Source: a virus
IMG/VR virus record: IMGVR_UViG_3300006119_000020
Span: 1-44,188 of that record
Strand: one strand, 5' to 3'
DNA: 44,188 bases
Part shown: positions 31,826 through 44,188 of the stretch, in pieces
Position numbering within the stretch: position 1 is the stretch's first letter
Layout: each line of letters starts with the position of its first letter
Position numbers and translations under genes: made by a program
Notes under the pieces: model-generated
The model's input: only the letters and a program-made list of their open reading frames with translations
What the model was told of the DNA's origin: nothing
Databases searched by the model: none

Positions 31826-32170
31826 TCATGACATGGGGGGATTAAACGCTAGCCCTACTATGAAGCGACCAACTAGCGCCGCATTGTCTTTGGAGAGTTG
31901 TAGTTGAGCCTTTTGTATCGCGTCGTTTAGCTGGAATTGCCCTAAGTCGGTTACGAGCGTCGTGTCATTGCGAATATTGAGGGCGCTTTGTTGCTTCTCT
32001 GAGACACGACCTTTTGTCCCCTCAATCTCGCTTTGATTGATTGCGCTTTGATTGCTGCGATATGCTGTGATCTTGGCGCTATTGATTAGGTCGCTGTGAG
32101 TGATGCCAGCCGCTCGCATAGCCTCTTGATATTCGGCTATCTCGCTTATGCCAGGGCGATAGTCTGTCAT
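31826..32170 (-). CDS. hypothetical helical protein
   Basis: 114 residues, Gln/Asn/Ser-rich and helical: ISEIAEYQEAMRAAGITHSD, then QSAINQSEIEGTKGRVSEKQ and LGQFQLNDAIQKAQLQLSKD, with a short hydrophobic tail (ALVGRFIVGLAF). Composition resembles small virion or assembly proteins, but no family is recognised. Start overlaps the stop of the preceding short ORF by ATGA. It may be the first or second gene of the late minus-strand transcript. Confidence 0.5.
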   Translation of the reverse strand: MTDYRPGISEIAEYQEAMRAAGITHSDLINSAKITAYRSNQSAINQSEIEGTKGRVSEKQQSALNIRNDTTLVTDLGQFQLNDAIQKAQLQLSKDNAALVGRFIVGLAFNPPMS

Positions 32171-32301
32171 TGTGTGTCGCTCGCTATTGCGCCGTTATTG
32201 TGTGTCATCTCTTGTTCGATCATTACGCTAAAGCGCCCTTTAATCTCACAAGATAAAGCATTGTCGCCGCGCAAAGAGATTTGACTCAATTTCAATCTCA
32301 T
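32167..32301 (-). CDS. 44-residue ORF coupled to next gene
   Basis: A short frame starting MRLKLSQISLRGDNALSCEI, ending in EQEMTHNNGAIASDTQ, whose TGA overlaps the next ATG (ATGA). There is no strong ribosome site before its ATG. The coupling and the absence of a better gene in this stretch support it weakly. It would be the first gene of the leftward late operon. Function unknown. Confidence 0.4.
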   Translation of the reverse strand: MRLKLSQISLRGDNALSCEIKGRFSVMIEQEMTHNNGAIASDTQ

Positions 32302-32503
32302 TACGACGCACCATACTCACACGTGGTTAAATAATGAGTAAAAACAGATAGTTGACTCACTTGATTGCCTATCCGCGCCACAAACAAATCACTTGACAAA
32401 ATAGACGGCGCTTATCACGGCGCTAAATAAACATTGCATATCCTTTAGCCTCGTGTTAAATCTGATTTGCGTCTACCAGCGCATAACAAAAGGATTAATC
32501 ACC
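32302..32503. promoter_or_regulatory. divergent control region between late and plus-strand cassettes
   Basis: About 200 bases with no gene, between leftward late genes and the rightward cassette. It contains a consensus -35 hexamer TTGACA at 32393-32398, two direct copies of ACGGCGCT (32405-32412, 32417-32424) just downstream, AT-rich TAAATAA after them, and the first CTACCAG hairpin (32468-32483). A -10 hexamer at ideal spacing is not evident, so promoter positions are not fixed; an activator binding the ACGGCGCT repeats is possible. Confidence 0.4.
32468..32483 (+). promoter_or_regulatory. hairpin 1 with TCTACCAG loop
   Basis: TGCG (32468-32471) and CGCA (32480-32483) enclose the 8-base loop TCTACCAG. 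It lies 20 bases before the ATG of the 30-residue ORF, just before its AAAAGGAT ribosome site. The same loop recurs at 32650, 35604 and, shifted by one base, at 35910. Confidence 0.6.
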
Positions 32504-32596
32504 ATGAATACAGTCATCGAAGAAACAGCCGTAGCAGTTGGCGTCTTAATGCTCGCCGCGAGCGTTATCGCTTCGCCCTTTATCCTCTTTCATTGA
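32504..32596 (+). CDS. 30-residue membrane peptide
   Basis: A short frame with a good ribosome site (AAAAGGATTAATCACC before ATG), the same AAAGGAT signal used by the other plus-strand genes here. It starts MNTVIEETA, then a hydrophobic stretch (VAVGVLMLAASVIASPFILF) and ends in His. Probably a single membrane span. It is the first gene of the plus-strand cassette and lies between two TCTACCAG hairpins. Function unknown. Confidence 0.5.
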   Translation: MNTVIEETAVAVGVLMLAASVIASPFILFH

Positions 32597-32649
32597 TTGC
32601 GACTTTAAGCGCCTCACAAGGGCGCTTATGGGCGCAATCAAGCGTCGAT

Positions 32650-32665
32650 CCCGTCTACCAGCGGG
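32650..32665 (+). promoter_or_regulatory. hairpin 2 with TCTACCAG loop
   Basis: CCCG (32650-32653) pairs with CGGG (32662-32665) around the loop TCTACCAG. It is 18 bases before the ATG at 32683 and directly precedes the ribosome site GAGAGGAT. Same architecture and distance to the gene start as hairpin 1, with a different stem, i.e. compensatory change. Confidence 0.65.
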
Positions 32666-32682
32666 CTTTGAGAGGATAAGAC

Positions 32683-34314
32683 ATGTTTACCCTGTATTCC
32701 TTGGAGCAATCACAACTGCTATCTAATCGTATAACCTTTGTTGACGGTAAAAGAGCCGCTCGCGCCGCTCGCCTCTTATCCGTTAAAACTAAGGCTAAAT
32801 TTCAAGTCAGGAAATGTGAAGAAACAAGCGCCATTGCTTGGCAAGAGCGAGAAACGGCGCGCTTTGAAGCGGGCGAATATAAGCCATTGGAAGAAAGATT
32901 GCACAATCTCTCAATAGAGCATTTCCCGCTTCATTTCGCGCACATAGCAAAGAAAAAGCCCTCACTTATCGCCTATACAAAGGACGAAGTTAAAGGCGCC
33001 TCAGATAAGCAATCACTCATATCAATTGAGGCATATGTCCAACTATTGGTAGATAAAGGCGCTATTGAGCAAGATGACGTTAAAGTCATTGCGCGCCGCC
33101 ATGCAAACTATGCAAAGGTTGTTGAGGGCGCGCTTAAATTCGCAACAACCCCAGACGAAATTGAGCGAGTATATATCAATTACGACGCCTCAATCCATGC
33201 TTTGAGCGTATCTTGCATGAGACACGGCCTAGCACATTGGCCACGGGTAAATGGCGACCGTTATCACCCAACAAGAGTATATGGGGCTGGCGACCTAGCA
33301 ATTGCCTATATCTCCGACGATGAAGGTCGCACAATCGCCCGCGCCCTTTGTTGGCCTGAGAAGAAAATATATTCGCGCGTCTATGCAGGGGAAAATTCAC
33401 CCCTGCATGATCTGTTAAAGTCTGAGGGGTTTGAGAAGTCGCGCTATTATTCACTTCAAAATCCTTCAATGCAGGGCGCGCGTCTACTGCTAGTCGAGAA
33501 TGATCACGGAAATTATGTCGCGCCATATATGGACGAATGTGGCGCTGCGACTGATAACGGCGAATATCTTATTGTCGCTGAATATGGCGATTACAACCTT
33601 AATCAAACAAATGGTGAGGTCGAAAACACACACGCTGATGATCGTCCTATCTGTGAGAATTGCGACGAAAGGACCGACGAGAGCGATATGACTACTGTTT
33701 ATAACGCAATTATTCGCAATCGTCCTGATAATCCATCATATATGTGCGAGCATTGCGCCGATAGAAATTCCTACTATTGCCACGGCTACCAAGAAAGATT
33801 GAGCGACGATATTCACTCAGTTGAGGTAGACGGCGATCTTTATTCTTACAACTATGTCGAGAGTAGCGGAGATATTAATTATTGCGAATATAGGCACGAA
33901 TATACTACCGAGGATATTCATAGCGTCATTGTTAATGATAGCGGAGACGAAGAATATTGGTCACAGTCATCAGTCGATGATAGCGCCTTTGAGTATGACG
34001 GAAAGTATTATTCAAATGATCTTGACCATGTTGAGGTTGTAACAGAGCGTTATGTGCCGCGATACAATAGAAGCTGGAAATATCTTTCTCGCGCCAGTAA
34101 TTGGAGAGGCGAGATAAAAACTAATGTATGGTTTGTAGATGAAGAAACAAAGATCCCTCAATCAGTCATCGATGACGGCGAGATTGAGATATATGAGGGT
34201 GTAGACGGTCGCACATATGCGACAGACTACAAAGACAACTACCCCGTCAATCGTGCGCGCGTCATGCCTATTGAGGCTCATGAGGATGACGGCGAGCAAT
34301 CAATAGCAGCATGA
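32683..34314 (+). CDS. large cassette protein with a zinc-ribbon-like Cys motif
   Basis: 543 residues. The first 130 residues are basic and helical; about 165-290 form a domain with SCMRHGLAHWPRVNG, YGAGDLAIAYISDDEGRTIA and GARLLLVENDHGNYVAPYMD; then a possible zinc ribbon, CENCDERT at about 321 and CEHCADRNSYYC at about 354-365. The last 170 residues are acidic with repeated Tyr/Asp/Ser-rich turns (DDIHSVEVDGDLYSYNYVES, EDIHSVIVND), two copies of a DIHSV motif. Not a known enzyme to me. GAGAGGATAAGAC precedes the ATG. A nucleic-acid or protein-binding role is suggested by the Cys pairs only. Confidence 0.7.
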   Translation: MFTLYSLEQSQLLSNRITFVDGKRAARAARLLSVKTKAKFQVRKCEETSAIAWQERETARFEAGEYKPLEERLHNLSIEHFPLHFAHIAKKKPSLIAYTKDEVKGASDKQSLISIEAYVQLLVDKGAIEQDDVKVIARRHANYAKVVEGALKFATTPDEIERVYINYDASIHALSVSCMRHGLAHWPRVNGDRYHPTRVYGAGDLAIAYISDDEGRTIARALCWPEKKIYSRVYAGENSPLHDLLKSEGFEKSRYYSLQNPSMQGARLLLVENDHGNYVAPYMDECGAATDNGEYLIVAEYGDYNLNQTNGEVENTHADDRPICENCDERTDESDMTTVYNAIIRNRPDNPSYMCEHCADRNSYYCHGYQERLSDDIHSVEVDGDLYSYNYVESSGDINYCEYRHEYTTEDIHSVIVNDSGDEEYWSQSSVDDSAFEYDGKYYSNDLDHVEVVTERYVPRYNRSWKYLSRASNWRGEIKTNVWFVDEETKIPQSVIDDGEIEIYEGVDGRTYATDYKDNYPVNRARVMPIEAHEDDGEQSIAA

Positions 34315-34325
34315 GGGCTTGACAT

Positions 34326-34351
34326 TATGGGCGCGCATAATCGCGCCCATA
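34326..34351 (+). promoter_or_regulatory. perfect 10-bp stem-loop between cassette genes
   Basis: TATGGGCGCG (34326-34335) and CGCGCCCATA (34342-34351) form a perfect 10-bp stem with a 6-base loop; there is no T run after it. A second GGCGCGCCC (34354-34362) can compete for the GGGCGCG arm, so alternative structures are possible before the peptidase gene. The element CTACCAG (34371-34377), here without a clear stem, follows, then AAAAGGAT. Confidence 0.55.
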
Positions 34352-34391
34352 TTGGCGCGCCCTTGCGTCACTACCAGAAAAGGATCACAGC

Positions 34392-35369
34392 ATGACAAGG
34401 ATAATCAAACATAGCGCGACAATCGCGCAACAAGAGCTGGTTAATATGCTAACACATAGGCGACCGGCCCGCTCAAAAACTGAGGTAGCATTTGTCGATC
34501 ATTATATTGATAGTTTACCCCAGATATATTCCGACTCATACGGAAACAGATATTGCAAGATAGGCAAAGCGCCCTCAGTCTTATGGTCATGTCACACAGA
34601 CACAGTTCACACAAAAGACGGAAATCAATCAATCGTGATTGACGGCGACAATGTGCGACTTGCAAAGACTGAGAAGCAATCCTCTTGCTTAGGCGGCGAC
34701 GATAGCGCCGGAGTCTGGATTATGCGCCAAATGATTAAGCGCCGAATTGAGGGCCTGTATATCTTTCATAGGGATGAGGAGGTTGGAGGGCTTGGCAGCG
34801 ACTTTATCGCCAAGAATAACGCGCGCGAGCTAGAGCATATACAGGTCGCAATCGCATTAGATAGGCGCGGCTATGATAGCGTCATCACCCATCAAGGATT
34901 AAGGACGGCGAGTGATGACTTTGCCAAGTCATTGTCAAAGCAATTAGGAGGGCTCTACAAACCAGATAGCGGCGGCACATTCACAGATACAGCCAACTAT
35001 AAGCGTTTAATCCCAGAATGTAGCAATCTATCATGCGGCTACAATGACGCACACAGCGCCCTTGAAAGTCAGAATATACGCTTTGCCTCTCAGCTCTTAG
35101 ACAGACTATGTGAAATTGACTTTTCAAAGATCACGGTCGCTCGCAATCCCGCTGATATAGATGATGATCTATATTATTCTAGGGGTTCCAGCTTTTTTGA
35201 TGATGACTGGCATTTCACGAAACCAGCGCGACGATCACGGCGCGACACATATCAAGAATTGCTCGACCTAGTTAGCCTATACCCGCGAGAGGTAGCCGAC
35301 TTTTTAGAGTCGCAGGGTTTTACCGCTGATGATATAGCCGACCAATATGGGATCTATACGCAAGTTTAA
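34392..35369 (+). CDS. M20/M28-type zinc peptidase-like protein
   Basis: 325 residues. The ligand set of di-zinc exopeptidases appears in order: His68-x-Asp70 in WSCHTDTVH, Asp103/Asp104 in GGDDSAG, the catalytic Glu pair Glu129-Glu130 in HRDEEVGG, Asp157 in ALDRRGY and His221 in GYNDAHS. This matches tripeptidase T/M20- or M28/M42-type aminopeptidases, though the protein is shorter and has a charged C-terminal 80 residues without the usual lid length. No signal peptide, so it should act in the cytoplasm, perhaps on peptides or an amide-linked small molecule. AAAAGGATCACAGC precedes the ATG. It is unusual cargo for a podovirus. Confidence 0.8.
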   Translation: MTRIIKHSATIAQQELVNMLTHRRPARSKTEVAFVDHYIDSLPQIYSDSYGNRYCKIGKAPSVLWSCHTDTVHTKDGNQSIVIDGDNVRLAKTEKQSSCLGGDDSAGVWIMRQMIKRRIEGLYIFHRDEEVGGLGSDFIAKNNARELEHIQVAIALDRRGYDSVITHQGLRTASDDFAKSLSKQLGGLYKPDSGGTFTDTANYKRLIPECSNLSCGYNDAHSALESQNIRFASQLLDRLCEIDFSKITVARNPADIDDDLYYSRGSSFFDDDWHFTKPARRSRRDTYQELLDLVSLYPREVADFLESQGFTADDIADQYGIYTQV

Positions 35370-35411
35370 TAGGGGGGGATATAAAACCCCCTATCTTAAA
35401 AAGGATCTACA

Positions 35412-35690
35412 ATGGCGCCTATCAAACCCCCGCCCTTATTCATAAAGGCATGGCGGGAACATCTTGGATTGCGCAATATCGATCTAGCCCAAAAGCTAGG
35501 CGTGAGCGCGTCACAGCTCGCACAATGGGAGTCGGGCAACCGTCTTCCCACACGCCACACACAGGCCGTTATAGCGAGCGCATTGGGCATCGGCTATCTG
35601 TCCCTCTATCATCTACCAGTGAAAGAGAAGCAAAATGTTAAGAACAGCAATCGCAATTCTCCTACTAACAAAATCCGCAATCGCTTGTGA
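35412..35690 (+). CDS. HTH transcription regulator (XRE type)
   Basis: 92 residues with a Cro/CI-type helix-turn-helix: WREHLGLRNIDLAQKLGVSA then SQLAQWESGNRLP, the usual Q-x3-W-E-x-G-x-x-x-P signature. The C-terminus is a short basic tail. AAAAAGGATCTACA lies before the ATG. It is downstream of the peptidase gene in the plus-strand cassette and may regulate that cassette. Its last 56 bases overlap the next gene, and hairpin 4 lies within its 3' end. Confidence 0.8.
   Translation: MAPIKPPPLFIKAWREHLGLRNIDLAQKLGVSASQLAQWESGNRLPTRHTQAVIASALGIGYLSLYHLPVKEKQNVKNSNRNSPTNKIRNRL
35604..35627 (+). promoter_or_regulatory. hairpin 4 with TCTACCAG loop
   Basis: CTCT-a-TCA (35604-35611) pairs with TGA-a-AGAG (35620-35627), one A/A mismatch, around the loop TCTACCAG (35612-35619). 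It lies 8 bases before the ATG at 35635, and its right arm (GAAAGAGAAG) is the ribosome site of that gene. It is inside the 3' end of the HTH gene. Confidence 0.6.
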
Positions 35691-35901
35691 CGAAGGTTCA
35701 AGCTGTCCCGGCCCATTAGACCTAGGGCCACCCTTGCCAACACAAGGCGACTATATGCCAAGCGATATTGACGCCCCGCCCTCTCGAACAAGCGGCGGCA
35801 CATATGTGCAATCTGGCAATATCGGAAATTGGTATGGCGATAATGGCTCCCATTGCGTGTCAACTAATTTCAATGGGATCGTAAACGTATCTTGTTTTTA
35901 A
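35635..35901 (+). CDS. small exported protein
   Basis: 88 residues with a short signal peptide (MLRTAIAILLLTKSAIACDE), possibly cleaved after SAIA. The mature part is Pro/Gly/Ser-rich with two Cys in CDEGSSCPG and two near the C-terminus (SHCVSTNF, NVSCF), so disulfides are likely. The central part has PPSRTSGGTYVQSGNIGNWY. It overlaps the HTH gene by 56 bases and ends the plus-strand cassette. Role unknown; periplasmic lysogenic-conversion or exclusion factor is possible. Confidence 0.6.
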   Translation: MLRTAIAILLLTKSAIACDEGSSCPGPLDLGPPLPTQGDYMPSDIDAPPSRTSGGTYVQSGNIGNWYGDNGSHCVSTNFNGIVNVSCF

Positions 35902-35909
35902 AGAGATTG

Positions 35910-35935
35910 GGGCGACTCCTACCAGAGAGTCGCCC
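35910..35935 (+). promoter_or_regulatory. hairpin 5 with CTACCAGA loop
   Basis: GGGCGACTC (35910-35918) pairs perfectly with GAGTCGCCC (35927-35935) around the loop CTACCAGA. It follows the last cassette gene and precedes an AAAGGAT signal at 35950-35956. No T run follows. It is the strongest stem of the CTACCAG series. Confidence 0.6.
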
Positions 35936-36022
35936 TAGCTCACGCGCGAAAGGATCGACACGGTGAGCCAAGGTTGGTCTTTCTCAAGCCAACCCCACAC
36001 TAGCTCTAAGGGTCACGCGAAT

Positions 36023-36502
36023 TTAAAACAATTCGCCCTGCTCAATGTTCCCCATGTTTTGCTTAATTTGACTCTTTTTCAGCAATTTAGCCCCAATTTT
36101 CTTGTCGGCTTTTCTCTTTGCTGCGCTGGCCCGTCCAGCCATCCTTGCTATTTCTCTGCGTCTATTTGAGTCGAGCTTTTTAGCTCGCGCAATACCACCG
36201 CTGGCGGCTATTTTTTTTCTTTCTTTCCTGTGGAAAACTTCATAACTATCTCTAGTTGTTCCATCTTCTTTCAACTTGCTAGGAGAAAGAACAACCATTA
36301 ATTCGCAGTCTAGGGCGCGCAGTATAGCAGGTAGCGAGAGCGGTCCTAGTGCTTTTAGGCCACAGAAAATTTTATTTGAATAACCACCCTGCAATCCGGC
36401 GCGGTCATTAAGCTCCATTAGGGTCATACCGCGATGGATACGAACCCTATTGAGAGCTGCAATCAAGTCAGCCATCGTAACGATTGACGGCTGGTTCATC
36501 AT
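36023..36502 (-). CDS. HTH regulator with basic C-terminal tail
   Basis: 159 residues from ATG at 36502, which overlaps the upstream stop by ATGA. Residues about 10-75 form an XRE-type helix-turn-helix (RIHRGMTLMELNDRAGLQGG, then YSNKIF, LGPLSLPAILRALDCEL). The C-terminal 70 residues are strongly basic and contain AASGGIARAKKLDSNRRREI and ARMAGRASAAKRK, similar to the GGxAR...RR motif common in phage HTH proteins. It is the last gene of the leftward replication operon and meets the plus-strand cassette tail to tail. Likely a DNA-binding regulator. Confidence 0.7.
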   Translation of the reverse strand: MMNQPSIVTMADLIAALNRVRIHRGMTLMELNDRAGLQGGYSNKIFCGLKALGPLSLPAILRALDCELMVVLSPSKLKEDGTTRDSYEVFHRKERKKIAASGGIARAKKLDSNRRREIARMAGRASAAKRKADKKIGAKLLKKSQIKQNMGNIEQGELF

Positions 36503-37101
36503 TCGGCGGCTTCGCTCAGGCCGTAATACTGACGGTTGTTTTGTTTTTCCCAAACCTCAAGCCATGAGGCTGGAATTGTCCTTGTCACAACTGGCCTAAC
36601 AGGTCCGGCAGCTATCTCAGCCTTGGTCATGTAGCCGTAGGGATGGTTCGGCCTCATCGTATAACGATCTGAACCTAGCCTATTGACGATGAAATTTTCA
36701 TCAGCCAGCTCATCGGCAGTAAATCCATTTGTCGGTGGCTCTAGTTTTCCTGACTTCAGCTTATCAACAAGCTCATTGAAGCGGCGCTTCATATCCTCGC
36801 GCTGCTCCTCCGGCATTTCATAGCGCGGTAAACGTGGTAGGGCCTCAGTGAGTCTCTCGACCCTTCTGGCTGCGTTTTCCTGCGCCGCGCTATATACCTG
36901 GCCAGCCGATGGAATAAACGCGCTGTTGGTCTTCGCAAGGCGATTACAGGCCATCTCAACATCGATGGCGTTGGTTGATCCCATTGTCTCGCAATAATCC
37001 TTGATCCGGCTAACCAGATCCTCACGACCCAACGCAGATGAGGCGGGGAATTTGTTGAACAGGTGAACTATCGCTGATTGAATCCGTTTCTTGTTGTCCA
37101 T
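36499..37101 (-). CDS. putative helicase loader
   Basis: About 200 residues (a start three codons earlier is possible). The N-terminal 75 residues show the pattern of phage helicase loaders (G39P/lambda P-like context): DLVSRIKDYCETMGSTNAID, VEMACNRLAKTNSAFIPSAG, QVYSAAQENA, i.e. two helices and the phrase FIPSAGQV. The rest is basic and partly disordered. It directly follows the initiator-like gene, with which it overlaps by about 80 bases, as O and P lie together in lambda. It would bring the host replicative helicase to the origin. Assignment by pattern and neighbours. Confidence 0.55.
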   Translation of the reverse strand: MDNKKRIQSAIVHLFNKFPASSALGREDLVSRIKDYCETMGSTNAIDVEMACNRLAKTNSAFIPSAGQVYSAAQENAARRVERLTEALPRLPRYEMPEEQREDMKRRFNELVDKLKSGKLEPPTNGFTADELADENFIVNRLGSDRYTMRPNHPYGYMTKAEIAAGPVRPVVTRTIPASWLEVWEKQNNRQYYGLSEAAE

Positions 37102-38567: not shown

Positions 38568-38731
38568 CAGCGTTGCCCCTTCTCAAGAGCCGCTTCGATG
38601 CGGGCGATGATCGTATCGATGATGTCGTTGATGAACTCGCGCTCAGACTTGGAGCCAGTAACCTGCCCGCGCTTCTGATCTTCTCTGACTTTTCGCAAAG
38701 CCATTAATTGTTGCGATGGAGAATGTTTCAT
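38567..38731 (-). CDS. small helical protein in replication operon
   Basis: 54 residues, fully helical and charged: MKHSPSQQLMALRKVREDQK, then SEREFINDIIDTIIARIEAA and a basic end. Its ATG overlaps the DnaA-like gene's stop by one base, and its TGA overlaps the next start. The position in a tightly coupled operon supports that it is real. Function unknown. Confidence 0.55.
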   Translation of the reverse strand: MKHSPSQQLMALRKVREDQKRGQVTGSKSEREFINDIIDTIIARIEAALEKGQR

Positions 38732-39273
38732 CACGCGCCCCAATAAACATTGTTGGAGGATGGGGCGAACAAACGATTGCGAAGCAAAAGAATATCGTGC
38801 GCGACCTTTGGGTTATCCAAAATCAAACGCTCGATCTTTCTAATGCCAGATAAAATGGTTGTATGATCGCGCTGAAATGATCGGCCAATCTGGGTTAGAG
38901 ATTGCGTCGAACAACTCTTGCAGAGATAAAACGCCAGATGGCGTGGATAAATAAGATCCGCGCAGCGACGATCGGCTAGAAGATCAATCTCGCTGACGTT
39001 AAAAAAGTCACATATGACTTGAACAACTTGGCGGGTGATTGGCTTGTATGGAACGTGGGGATATTCGCCATACTGATTTTTATAAACGATTTGTTTGGTT
39101 TTCTTGGTTGAAGGAACCTCAACAATCTTTGGCGCTTCAACAACAGCCGGCGGTGCAATTTGAATTGGCTTGACCACAACGGTTGCTACCGTTGTTTTTG
39201 ACATGCCCATTCTTTTCCAACGCTCTTTAGCGGCTTGATGATAATCCTTTTTTGAGATGCTGGTAGACATCAT
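38731..39273 (-). CDS. stand-alone DnaA domain IV (DNA-binding) protein
   Basis: 180 residues with no AAA+ ATPase. After a linker rich in Pro, Val and Lys, the last 100 residues are DnaA domain IV: VICDFFNVSEIDLLADRRCA, IYPRHLAFYLCKSC, LTQIGRSFQRDHTTILSGIR, with RDHTTI at 135-140 matching the DnaA box-reading signature. GAGGGG precedes the ATG pair. It could compete with or recruit host DnaA, or bind the phage origin. Located between RusA and the small replication genes, overlapping the RusA stop. Confidence 0.85.
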   Translation of the reverse strand: MMSTSISKKDYHQAAKERWKRMGMSKTTVATVVVKPIQIAPPAVVEAPKIVEVPSTKKTKQIVYKNQYGEYPHVPYKPITRQVVQVICDFFNVSEIDLLADRRCADLIYPRHLAFYLCKSCSTQSLTQIGRSFQRDHTTILSGIRKIERLILDNPKVAHDILLLRNRLFAPSSNNVYWGA

Positions 39274-39766: not shown

Positions 39767-40000
39767 TTAGTCTTTGCGCAAAGACGTTCGCGCTCTTGTC
39801 CATTTGAAAATGGAGAGATCGGGCTCAAAGCCTCGGCGCTTTAATGCGCGGTGTAATTCCGGGTATCGGTGAGCCGGTATGTAACCTTGCTCTTGCCAAT
39901 AAATGATCGCAGTCTCGCGGAGATCGCAGAGTGCAGCGACGGAGCGACGACCGCCTAGCGCGGTAATCAGACCGTCTAAGGTTTTGACTGATTTGCTCAT
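39767..40000 (-). CDS. Cro/YdaS-like small HTH protein
   Basis: 77 residues: VKTLDGLITALGGRRSVAAL and LRETAIIYWQEQGYIPAHRY. The leading LDGLITALGG-x-x-x-VA stretch and the W-x-x-x-G-x-I-P turn are those of YdaS/Cro-type single-domain repressors. It is the first gene after a consensus promoter (40007-40035) that overlaps operator O1, and the predicted transcription start falls at or next to its ATG. It is divergent from the CI-like gene. It should act as the lytic-side repressor. Confidence 0.78.
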   Translation of the reverse strand: MSKSVKTLDGLITALGGRRSVAALCDLRETAIIYWQEQGYIPAHRYPELHRALKRRGFEPDLSIFKWTRARTSLRKD

Positions 40001-40057: not shown

Positions 40058-40081
40058 AAAATATTTGGGGGTTTCTACTTA

Positions 40082-40110
40082 TTGTGTTAAGAAATTCTTA
40101 ACGCTATACG
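40082..40110 (+). promoter_or_regulatory. promoter of the CI-like repressor gene
   Basis: Weak -35 TTGTGT (40082-40087), 17-base spacer, -10 TATACG (40105-40110). Operator O3 (40086-40102) overlaps spacer and -35, so high repressor or Cro-like protein could shut it off. Confidence 0.45.
40086..40102. promoter_or_regulatory. operator O3
   Basis: GTTAAG-AAATT-CTTAAC, a perfect 17-bp palindrome of the same 6-5-6 design, 45 bp from O2 and within the repressor promoter. Confidence 0.7.
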
Positions 40111-40148
40111 GTTTGTGGAATCTGTTGAGTCAGGGTAATTGTGAGTCT

Positions 40149-40472
40149 ATGGAAAAATCTGATTGGAAATCAGTCGGGGACCGCCTTAAAGCGATACGCT
40201 TGGCCAAGGGATTTACAATCCAAGCGGGCTACGCAAGGCTGATTGGCTACGAGCCGCCGACTTATAATATGTGGGAGCGCGGCAATAGCCCCTTCCCTGT
40301 AGAAGCGGCTTTAAGAGTTTGCACCTTTACTGGCGCAACCCTTGATTACATTTACCGGGATGACATTTCTTCTTTGCCGACGAGTTTGATGACATTGCTC
40401 TCGTCAAACTCAGACGACGATCCCCCGCGCAATGCCCGCGCCTCAACCTCGGCCAAACGTTCGTCCAAATAA
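40149..40472 (+). CDS. CI-like repressor (short XRE type)
   Basis: 107 residues from the ATG at 40149. The helix-turn-helix lies at about 8-65: VGDRLKAIRLAKGFTIQAGY, then LIGYEPPTYNMWERGNSPFP. No LexA/S24 peptidase domain follows, only a short Ser/Arg-rich tail, so SOS-type self-cleavage is not expected. It is divergent from the Cro-like gene with three 17-bp operators between them. Its 3' end overlaps the opposite-strand gene at 40352-40639 by 121 bases. It probably maintains lysogeny. Confidence 0.75.
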   Translation: MEKSDWKSVGDRLKAIRLAKGFTIQAGYARLIGYEPPTYNMWERGNSPFPVEAALRVCTFTGATLDYIYRDDISSLPTSLMTLLSSNSDDDPPRNARASTSAKRSSK

Positions 40473-43614: not shown

Positions 43615-44188
43615 CGCGGCAGGTGAGGTGAGGTTGGGACAGGACCGGAGACGCAAGGCAGGAAGGGCTACTTCTGGAAACATTAGGCTAGGCAAGGCTG
43701 GATAGGAAAGGTCTGGTTTGGCGCGTAGAGGCGCGGCGCGGAGAGGCAGGAGTGGGGTGGCTAGGTGTGGCGCGGAGCGCAGAGGCGGGTTGCGGCAAGG
43801 CAGGAAAGGTGGGGCGAGGAATGTTCCGGCGAGCAACGGATTGGCGCGGCAGGAAAGGTGGGGCGAGGACAAGCTTGGAAAGGTGCGGCTGGGTTTGGCG
43901 AGGCAGGAATGGAAGGGCGAGGTTTGGTGCAAAAAGGTAATGCGGGGCGCGGCAGGAATGGTGAGGCGAGGAATGGCAGGGAAAGGCTCGGCGCGGCAGG
44001 AGGGGTGAGGCGAGGAATTACGGGGAGTGGAAATGCCAGGCGAGGCAGGAATGGAAAGGTATTGCGGGGTGAGGACGGGAACGTTCTGGCGTGGCCCGGA
44101 GAGGCAAGGCAGGAAAGGCATGGCGGGGTATGGTCGGGAACGACATGGCATGTTCTGGCGAGGCGAGGCAGGAGCGGTGTGGATGGGT
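43615..44188. repeat. NNNGG pentamer array with CAGG punctuation
   Basis: From the first cgcgg (43615) to the window end the plus strand can be read as consecutive 5-base words, 87 of 104 ending in GG. Frame is shifted by a 4-base word CAGG (once CTGG) at 43620, 43659, 43698, 43747, 43801, 43850, 43904, 43953, 43997, 44046, 44110 and 44169. Spacings are 39, 39, 49, 54, 49, 54, 49, 44, 49, 64, 59, all equal to 4 modulo 5. In units five to nine the order after CAGG is similar (aaagg/aatgg, tgggg/tgagg, then cgagg), and most units end cgcgg, cgagg or caagg. No gene fits; a long minus-strand open frame here is a by-product. It continues beyond the window. Confidence 0.92.

Follow-up and report, generated by a model that had tools for sequence, protein, structure and literature searches.

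We analysed a phage record (IMG/VR IMGVR_UViG_3300006119_000020) at its full length of 44,188 bases, hereafter the window, in which a plus-strand gene cassette at 32.5-35.9 kb has minus-strand gene blocks on both sides. The cassette carries short hairpins that present the same loop motif, CTACCAG, on stems unrelated to each other, and related phages and prophages carry hairpins of this kind before their own cassette genes. The loop is uniform inside one phage and different between phages: CUACCA in the window, CCGCCA in two relatives, and UGCCAG/UGCCAC or CCGAAAC in others. Judging from sequence comparison, we put it at about even that these hairpins are a post-transcriptional, probably translational, operator of early genes, read by a putative trans-acting factor.

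A recurrent loop on unrelated stems

Plus-strand copies of CTACCAG lie at 32473, 32655, 34371, 35613 and 35919, which are the five that a first-pass annotation had reported between 32468 and 35935. Four of them had been placed in 8-base hairpin loops with different stems, and all of those stems are present, the loop of the terminal hairpin being shifted by one base (Table 1). The claim that each copy marks a gene boundary holds for the five cassette boundaries, although the 35613 copy lies within the 3' end of the helix-turn-helix (HTH) open reading frame (ORF), 22 nucleotides (nt) upstream of the next start. Of the AAAGGAT-like ribosome site described earlier for most copies, AAAGGAT itself follows three of the plus-strand copies within 30 nt. 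The complement, CTGGTAG, is found on the window's plus strand solely opposite two minus-strand copies of CTACCAG. A sixth hairpin, overlooked in the first pass, lies on the minus strand (39256-39271) at the start of a gene whose product has a DnaA C-terminal domain (DnaA-C gene), with AAAAAAGGAT behind it.

How far chance could account for this recurrence depends on what is counted. Across the whole window and both strands CTACCAG numbers 7, against 2.25 in dinucleotide shuffles (7 reached in 0 of 100), and on the plus strand between 32400 and 36000 it numbers 5, against 0.10 in 1000 shuffles (maximum 2). The excess first reported for this heptamer is real, but the commonest 7-mer of a shuffled cassette is about as frequent, with 4 to 6 copies in 291 of 300 shuffles, as a chance recurrence of the heptamer with short stems would have it. 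The unusual feature is instead the hairpin context: TCTACCAG forms an 8-nt loop on three different perfect 4-bp stems, which any 8-mer loop matched in only 1 of 200 shuffled windows. It is the comparison with relatives that carries the case, the motif recurring independently and covarying there. Chance is refuted for the hairpin family, and we find it barely credible as a general account, though it may explain individual copies of the window, such as the one at 34371.

Loops, stems and positions in related phages

Relatives, cited below by our handles, were gathered by capsid, small-terminase, 36499 and large-terminase searches. A locus search with the cassette proteins gave L003, which is 100% identical to the window and so uninformative, and otherwise one distant relative, L004. 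In G003 (L168-L170), whose capsid is 93% identical to the window's, the cassette is syntenic and its genes are mostly different; many of them are preceded by a CCGCCAG-loop hairpin, then ACAGAAGGA and ATG. Corresponding hairpins stand before cassette genes in L204-L206, L208 and L213, with stems different again, and the relatives' cassettes hold other genes behind them, including ArdC (ArdcN-MPTase) and DUF932. The enrichment at intergenic sites of relatives, on which the first-pass annotation had staked its proposal, is present in these syntenic cassettes. Hairpins with TGCCAG precede genes in G018 (a contig of a Hyphomicrobiaceae metagenome-assembled genome, MAG), G023, G024, G026 and G008, the loop of G012 reads TGCCAC, and in L312, a prophage of Pseudooceanicola endophyticus, WCCGAAAC stands ahead of every cassette gene read, including the DUF932 gene. 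TA forms the loop core in all 6 window copies, and CG does so in the 7 listed copies of G003 and the 7 of L208. By our reading, 14 of 29 record sets have credible YRCCA hairpins before a Shine-Dalgarno sequence (SD) and start codon; with L312 the hairpin-bearing sets make about nine lineages. YRCCA matches in G014, G017, G022, L298, L312, the Microcystis phage and some of G023/G024 were set aside as chance because they lie inside long frames or lack a second copy. A pattern scan of viral contigs gave stems of at least three pairs in 4 of the 80 matches listed.

The stems covary. In alignment A7, comprising 13 hairpins of the window, G003 and L208 that were chosen by their 8-nt loop (6-nt-loop copies, CGCCAG, and terminal hairpins being excluded from pair counts), both sides change at 5 of 5 pairs. 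Pairing is possible in 89.2% of cells, against 51.6% in shuffles, and double changes occupy 25 cells, against 7.5 in shuffles (reached in 0 of 500); sliding the arms by 1-3 columns abolishes the covariation signal. The seven hairpins of L312 covary at 6 of 6 pairs, with 16 double-change cells against 5.2 in shuffles (0 of 500). This comparison strongly supports the earlier suggestion that a fixed loop on changing stems marks a conserved RNA structure. Across 193 family loci (2.37 Mb), a loop-blind detector picked out 2003 distinct hairpins that precede an SD and start; among the 4096 possible 6-mers at the 3' end of the loop, TGCCAG ranked first (8) and CGCCAG (7) joint second with GTGTCT and CGTGTC. 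Under a stricter detector, run on all loci of at least 5 kb, convincing arrays appeared in L154/L191, L204-L206, L208, L213 and L312 only. L012, L035, L072, L079 and L244 were also reported and judged artefacts of overlapping repeats, and the window is missing because its stems are 4 bp.

Orthologous sites switched loop together with the remaining copies. The hairpin at the DnaA-C start reads GATG-T-CTACCA-G-CATC in the window, GATG-T-CCGCCA-G-CATC in G003 and GATG-A-CCGCCA-G-CATC in L208 and L215, so that the window's stem is kept around the loops TCCGCCAG or ACCGCCAG; the DnaA-C proteins are only ~25-29% identical. After the last cassette gene, the hairpin reads GGGGGGATCT-CCGCCAGA-AG-TCCCCCC in G003, with one bulge, and GCGGCGACC-CCCGCCAGAA-GGTCGCCGC in L208, both with CCGCCAG loops on stems unlike the window's. 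TGCTG-ACCGCCAG-TAGCA stands before the CI-like repressor gene of L208 and L215, and a similar hairpin with one mismatch is readable before that of G003.

The hairpins are also tightly placed. In 30 curated copies, four of which have hand-entered starts 1-2 bases off (TGT, TGC, TGA and TGG shown), the loop ends 10-50 nt before the start codon (median 27; 21-35 nt in 26 of 30), and most have an A/C-rich linker and an SD in between. A bound 30S subunit has its upstream edge at about this distance.

Three host genomes yielded no copy outside the prophages or the phage contig that rose above the noise. In the whole 5.2-Mb Pseudooceanicola genome, model R1 (L312 loops) gave 7 matches at E 0.0011-0.010, all within C2:34096-44324, of which six belong to the model and one (44305) is new; the next best stood at E 0.60, and one model sequence was missed because 150 of 1262 candidates were scored. 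With model R3 (TGCCAG), two contig-429 copies were alone at E<=5 in the Hyphomicrobiaceae MAG, and in Gellertiella the prophage copy came top at E 0.845 with one weak other at E 4.9. Five alphaproteobacterial plasmids whose DUF932/ArdC homologues were examined likewise lack the hairpin in the leaders of these genes. Because of these two results the motif appears to be phage-owned, and we rejected both a host regulatory element (150 candidates scored per genome) and a property of the gene families themselves. The DUF932 proteins of the Rhodobacteral plasmids L345, L346 and L347 share 68-71% identity with their counterpart in the L312 prophage.

Several features accompany the hairpins (Table 1). 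A very small hydrophobic protein gene (hydrophobicity by eye) lies 3' of one hairpin in five lineages, and ORFs resembling the one at 32504 stand behind hairpins in G003, L208, G012 and G026. At several boundaries a stronger GC-rich hairpin between the upstream stop codon and the loop hairpin makes up a two-hairpin intergenic unit. Elsewhere in the window, divergent YdaS/MerR-like (39767-40000) and HTH_3/CI-like (40065-40472) genes suggest a temperate switch, and degenerate tandem repeats with periods of 15, 44 and 59 occupy 43802-44173, near the record end. No array was recognised in Rhizobium phage Pasto (L006), BDU-MI-1 or the Microcystis phage. Pasto has palindromic boxes like AGTCACTCWWARGTGACT at early gene boundaries (~395, 543, 697, 1305 and 3533), two of which overlap the SD; they are more like a DNA operator because their arms are conserved.

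Table 1. Hairpins, genes and accompanying features of the window and of named relatives (positions in the window unless a locus is given)
Feature	Position	Strand	Remark
Hairpin 1, TGCG-[TCTACCAG]-CGCA	32468..32483	+	before 30-aa ORF (32504)
Hairpin 2, CCCG-[TCTACCAG]-CGGG	32650..32665	+	before 543-aa gene
Stemless CTACCAG beside AAAAGGAT	34371..34377	+	before 325-aa gene; folding z-score +0.42
Hairpin 4, CTCTaTCA-[TCTACCAG]-TGAaAGAG	35604..35627	+	one A.A mismatch; just before 88-aa gene
Terminal hairpin, GGGCGACTC-[CTACCAGA]-GAGTCGCCC	35910..35935	+	loop shifted one base; folding z-score -4.87
Sixth hairpin, GATG-[TCTACCAG]-CATC	39256..39271	-	over start codons of DnaA-C gene
Hairpin of L204-L206/L208/L213, GTCA-CCCGCCAG-TGAC			before ArdC gene
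Hairpins of L204-L206/L208/L213, ACGCG-CCCGCCAG-CGCGT; CGACG-CCCGCCAG-CGTCG; CTTG-CGCCAG-CAAG			
Stronger GC-rich hairpins after stop codons	32593-32641; 34314-34363		also in L168 and L208 intergenic regions
Tiny hydrophobic ORF, 30 aa	32504..32596	+	single transmembrane segment by eye
Small hydrophobic ORFs after a hairpin	window 32504-32596; L168 ~8025; L208 ~8202; L191 ~13690; L335 ~1990		
543-aa gene, family unknown	32683..34314	+	homologues in Rhizobium phage Pasto and Bradyrhizobium phage BDU-MI-1
325-aa peptidase-like gene	34392..35369	+	phrog_4191; Peptidase_M28 sub-threshold
HTH_3 protein gene	35412..35690	+	no CTACCAG upstream
88-aa Cys-containing protein gene	35635..35901	+	no family match
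HTH-like protein, Lys/Arg-rich C-terminal tail	36023..36508	-	convergent with cassette; weak trans-factor candidate
Gene with Bac_DnaA_C domain	38731..39273	-	PF08299, E 1.4e-20

A putative shared operator and its alternatives

We postulate that the hairpins form one family of cis-acting RNA elements, in which a short stem of any sequence would present a fixed loop ~20-35 nt upstream of a start codon or, in the DnaA-C gene, over it. A putative factor, most likely a phage-encoded RNA-binding protein, would bind this loop and act on translation initiation of all these mRNAs jointly, so that genes for entry, counter-defence and replication, joined in relatives by repressor genes, would make up one post-transcriptional regulon; that it would repress, by occluding the 30S subunit, is a guess. 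RNA is the best reading of the active form because the arms are free and the centre is fixed, the distance to the start codon is set and one copy lies over a start codon. The concerted switch of the loop at all sites is what co-evolution with a single trans factor would predict, and so points to one such factor per phage. The first-pass annotation had offered a translational operator or a processing site, and the former fits best because of the tight position before starts and the copy over the DnaA-C gene start, with processing remaining as a rival.

Under transcript processing or stabilisation, a nuclease would cut between the strong GC hairpin after a stop codon and the loop hairpin, the former shielding the 3' end of the upstream transcript and the latter the 5' end of the downstream one. 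The two-hairpin layout at several boundaries in the window (pairs I4 and I6), in G003 and in L208 speaks for such an arrangement; a fixed loop that relatives change in concert is more than stability alone would call for, however, and the copy at the DnaA-C start was seen to lack an upstream partner hairpin. We consider both the processing account and this division of labour unlikely, if worth keeping in view. Phage-specific loops together with a syntenic basic-tail protein would fit the logic of N and boxB, so that the hairpins might be antitermination elements served by an N-like arginine-rich protein, or acting directly on RNA polymerase like put of HK022, reportedly an RNA-only case. With copies at a set start-codon distance before individual genes, and one over a start codon, rather than once per operon, antitermination seems to us distinctly improbable.

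The loop hairpin could also serve translation with no protein at all, by keeping the ribosome site and an A/C-rich linker open or as a standby site, and linkers such as CAACAGAAGGA or CAACCGAGAGGA do separate hairpin and SD in most copies. This would leave both the one fixed loop per phage and the differences between phages unexplained, and we give it little credence. As for loop pairing with a host RNA or with another phage RNA, which we weighed by thought only, CCGCCAG is complementary to a 16S segment and CUACCAG is not; on the phage side, CTGGTAG has no plus-strand copy in the window beyond those opposite minus-strand CTACCAG. A DNA-level element (an operator, a single-stranded DNA promoter as in plasmid leading regions, or a replication site) draws on the resemblance of the gene content, ArdC and DUF932, to plasmid leading regions. 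Dimer operators conserve their arms and not their centre, however; the five plasmid leaders lack the hairpin, the SD/ATG spacing suits RNA, and promoter patterns in the cassette did not exceed chance, all of which makes action at the DNA level very unlikely. A dimeric DNA operator in particular was rejected on its freely varying arms and fixed centre. We also rejected an intrinsic terminator, there being no plus-strand pattern of stem and U tract in the cassette and the terminal hairpin fitting one only on the minus strand.

A number of observations weigh against a shared operator. The heptamer count is unremarkable post hoc, as further 7-mers reach 5-6 copies in 32400-36000. The window's stems are mostly 4 bp, with folding z-scores of about -2 except at the terminal hairpin; the 35919 copy, 3' of the last cassette gene, has no convincing gene behind it, which also limits the boundary claim. 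There is no fold at the 34371 copy and no motif before the HTH gene at 35412, so that the first-pass annotation drew its bounds too wide in speaking of the whole cassette; it also drew them too narrow, given the DnaA-C gene and the relatives' CI-like repressor gene. At the DnaA-C start the stem is invariant and may be held partly by coding, in the first codons. No array was recognised in G009, G011, G014, G017, G022 and G025, all capsid- or terminase-relatives. Matches of a search model to its own sequences are built in, and only 150 of the 1262-2083 candidates in each whole genome received a score. As to the reader, an all-ORF comparison of 10 hairpin-positive with 6 'negative' records showed no positives-only small non-structural family among the 40 rows listed. 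The HTH/basic-tail family matched 7 of 10 positive and 5 of 6 negative records. The protein of the 36023..36508 type, present in G003, L213, G026, G018 and G008, is a weak candidate reader because its family also occurs in most genomes where no array was recognised. Trans-factor candidates sought among structural genes and HTH genes led nowhere.

Beyond the shared operator itself, we raise a wider proposal tentatively, thinking it possible but on balance doubtful: that an alphaproteobacterial phage and prophage lineage has an RNA-level regulon of early, counter-defence, replication and repressor genes, with a phage-specific loop code and its own RNA-binding reader. This would be an RNA counterpart of repressor-operator immunity specificity, its code rewritten in concert between close relatives (CUACCA and CCGCCA) and replaced in others (CCGAAAC). 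If true, it would provide a natural series of RNA-protein specificity pairs, drawn from a structured operator repeated across an early regulon, and would suggest a way for a phage to turn down its entry and anti-defence genes jointly after use. Loops, stems and positions can be given for about nine lineages, including prophages of Pseudooceanicola endophyticus and Gellertiella hungarica.

Comparison with known systems

No Rfam family matched at the gathering threshold in five sources, and none at E<=1 in 32100-36100; literature searches judged by title and abstract opening, with subscription journals thinly covered, gave no report of such a hairpin array. In gene content there is a likeness to anti-defence genes of plasmid leading regions, since ArdcN-MPTase and DUF932 genes stand behind the phage hairpins. 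Polyvalent proteins are described as acting early in invasion (PMC5512222). The likeness ends at the hairpin, which does not precede the five plasmid homologues examined.

Among RNA hairpins, CsrA/Rsm sites carry GGA in the loop, and as no loop of the window or the listed relatives contains GGA, we rejected a CsrA site. Lambda N/boxB and HK022 put are phage-specific RNA hairpins on early transcripts, with one or two sites per operon and RNA polymerase as target, whereas the window's family has one per gene, beside the SD. The boxB of lambda has a purine-rich pentaloop on a 5-bp stem with an adjacent boxA; the loops here are 6-8 nt with a YRCCAG core (boxA was not searched for), and we rejected that class. 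The hairpin of the MS2-type coat protein operator contains the start codon, a feature shared by the DnaA-C copy, but this operator is a single site in an RNA phage, and its loop and stem sequences differ from those of the window's family.

To our knowledge, phage translational operators either serve a single gene, as with gp43 and MS2 coat, or, in the case of RegA, serve many genes through sites that have no structure. The T4/RB69 gp43 operator, through which the DNA polymerase regulates its own synthesis, is a 16-18 nt RNA hairpin upstream of the start codon, recognised by its loop, with loops varying among related phages (PMC3014915). It shares with the window's family the place before a start codon, a reading via the loop that is probable in the window's family, and variation of loops between related phages. 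A single gene is the target of the gp43 operator, whose loop reads -UAAC- or -UAAA-, in contrast to many genes per phage and YRCCAG or CCGAAAC loops here; the loops are UCUACCAG in the window and others in relatives, none with UAAC or UAAA, so membership of this class was rejected. No polymerase domain was found among 20 window proteins in a non-exhaustive scan. RegA of T4 is one phage protein that represses ~30 early mRNAs at their initiation regions (PMC3014915). Its sites are unstructured and A+U rich, whereas those described here are hairpins. The gp43 operator and RegA are the nearest systems in logic, and the window's hairpin family is identical to neither.

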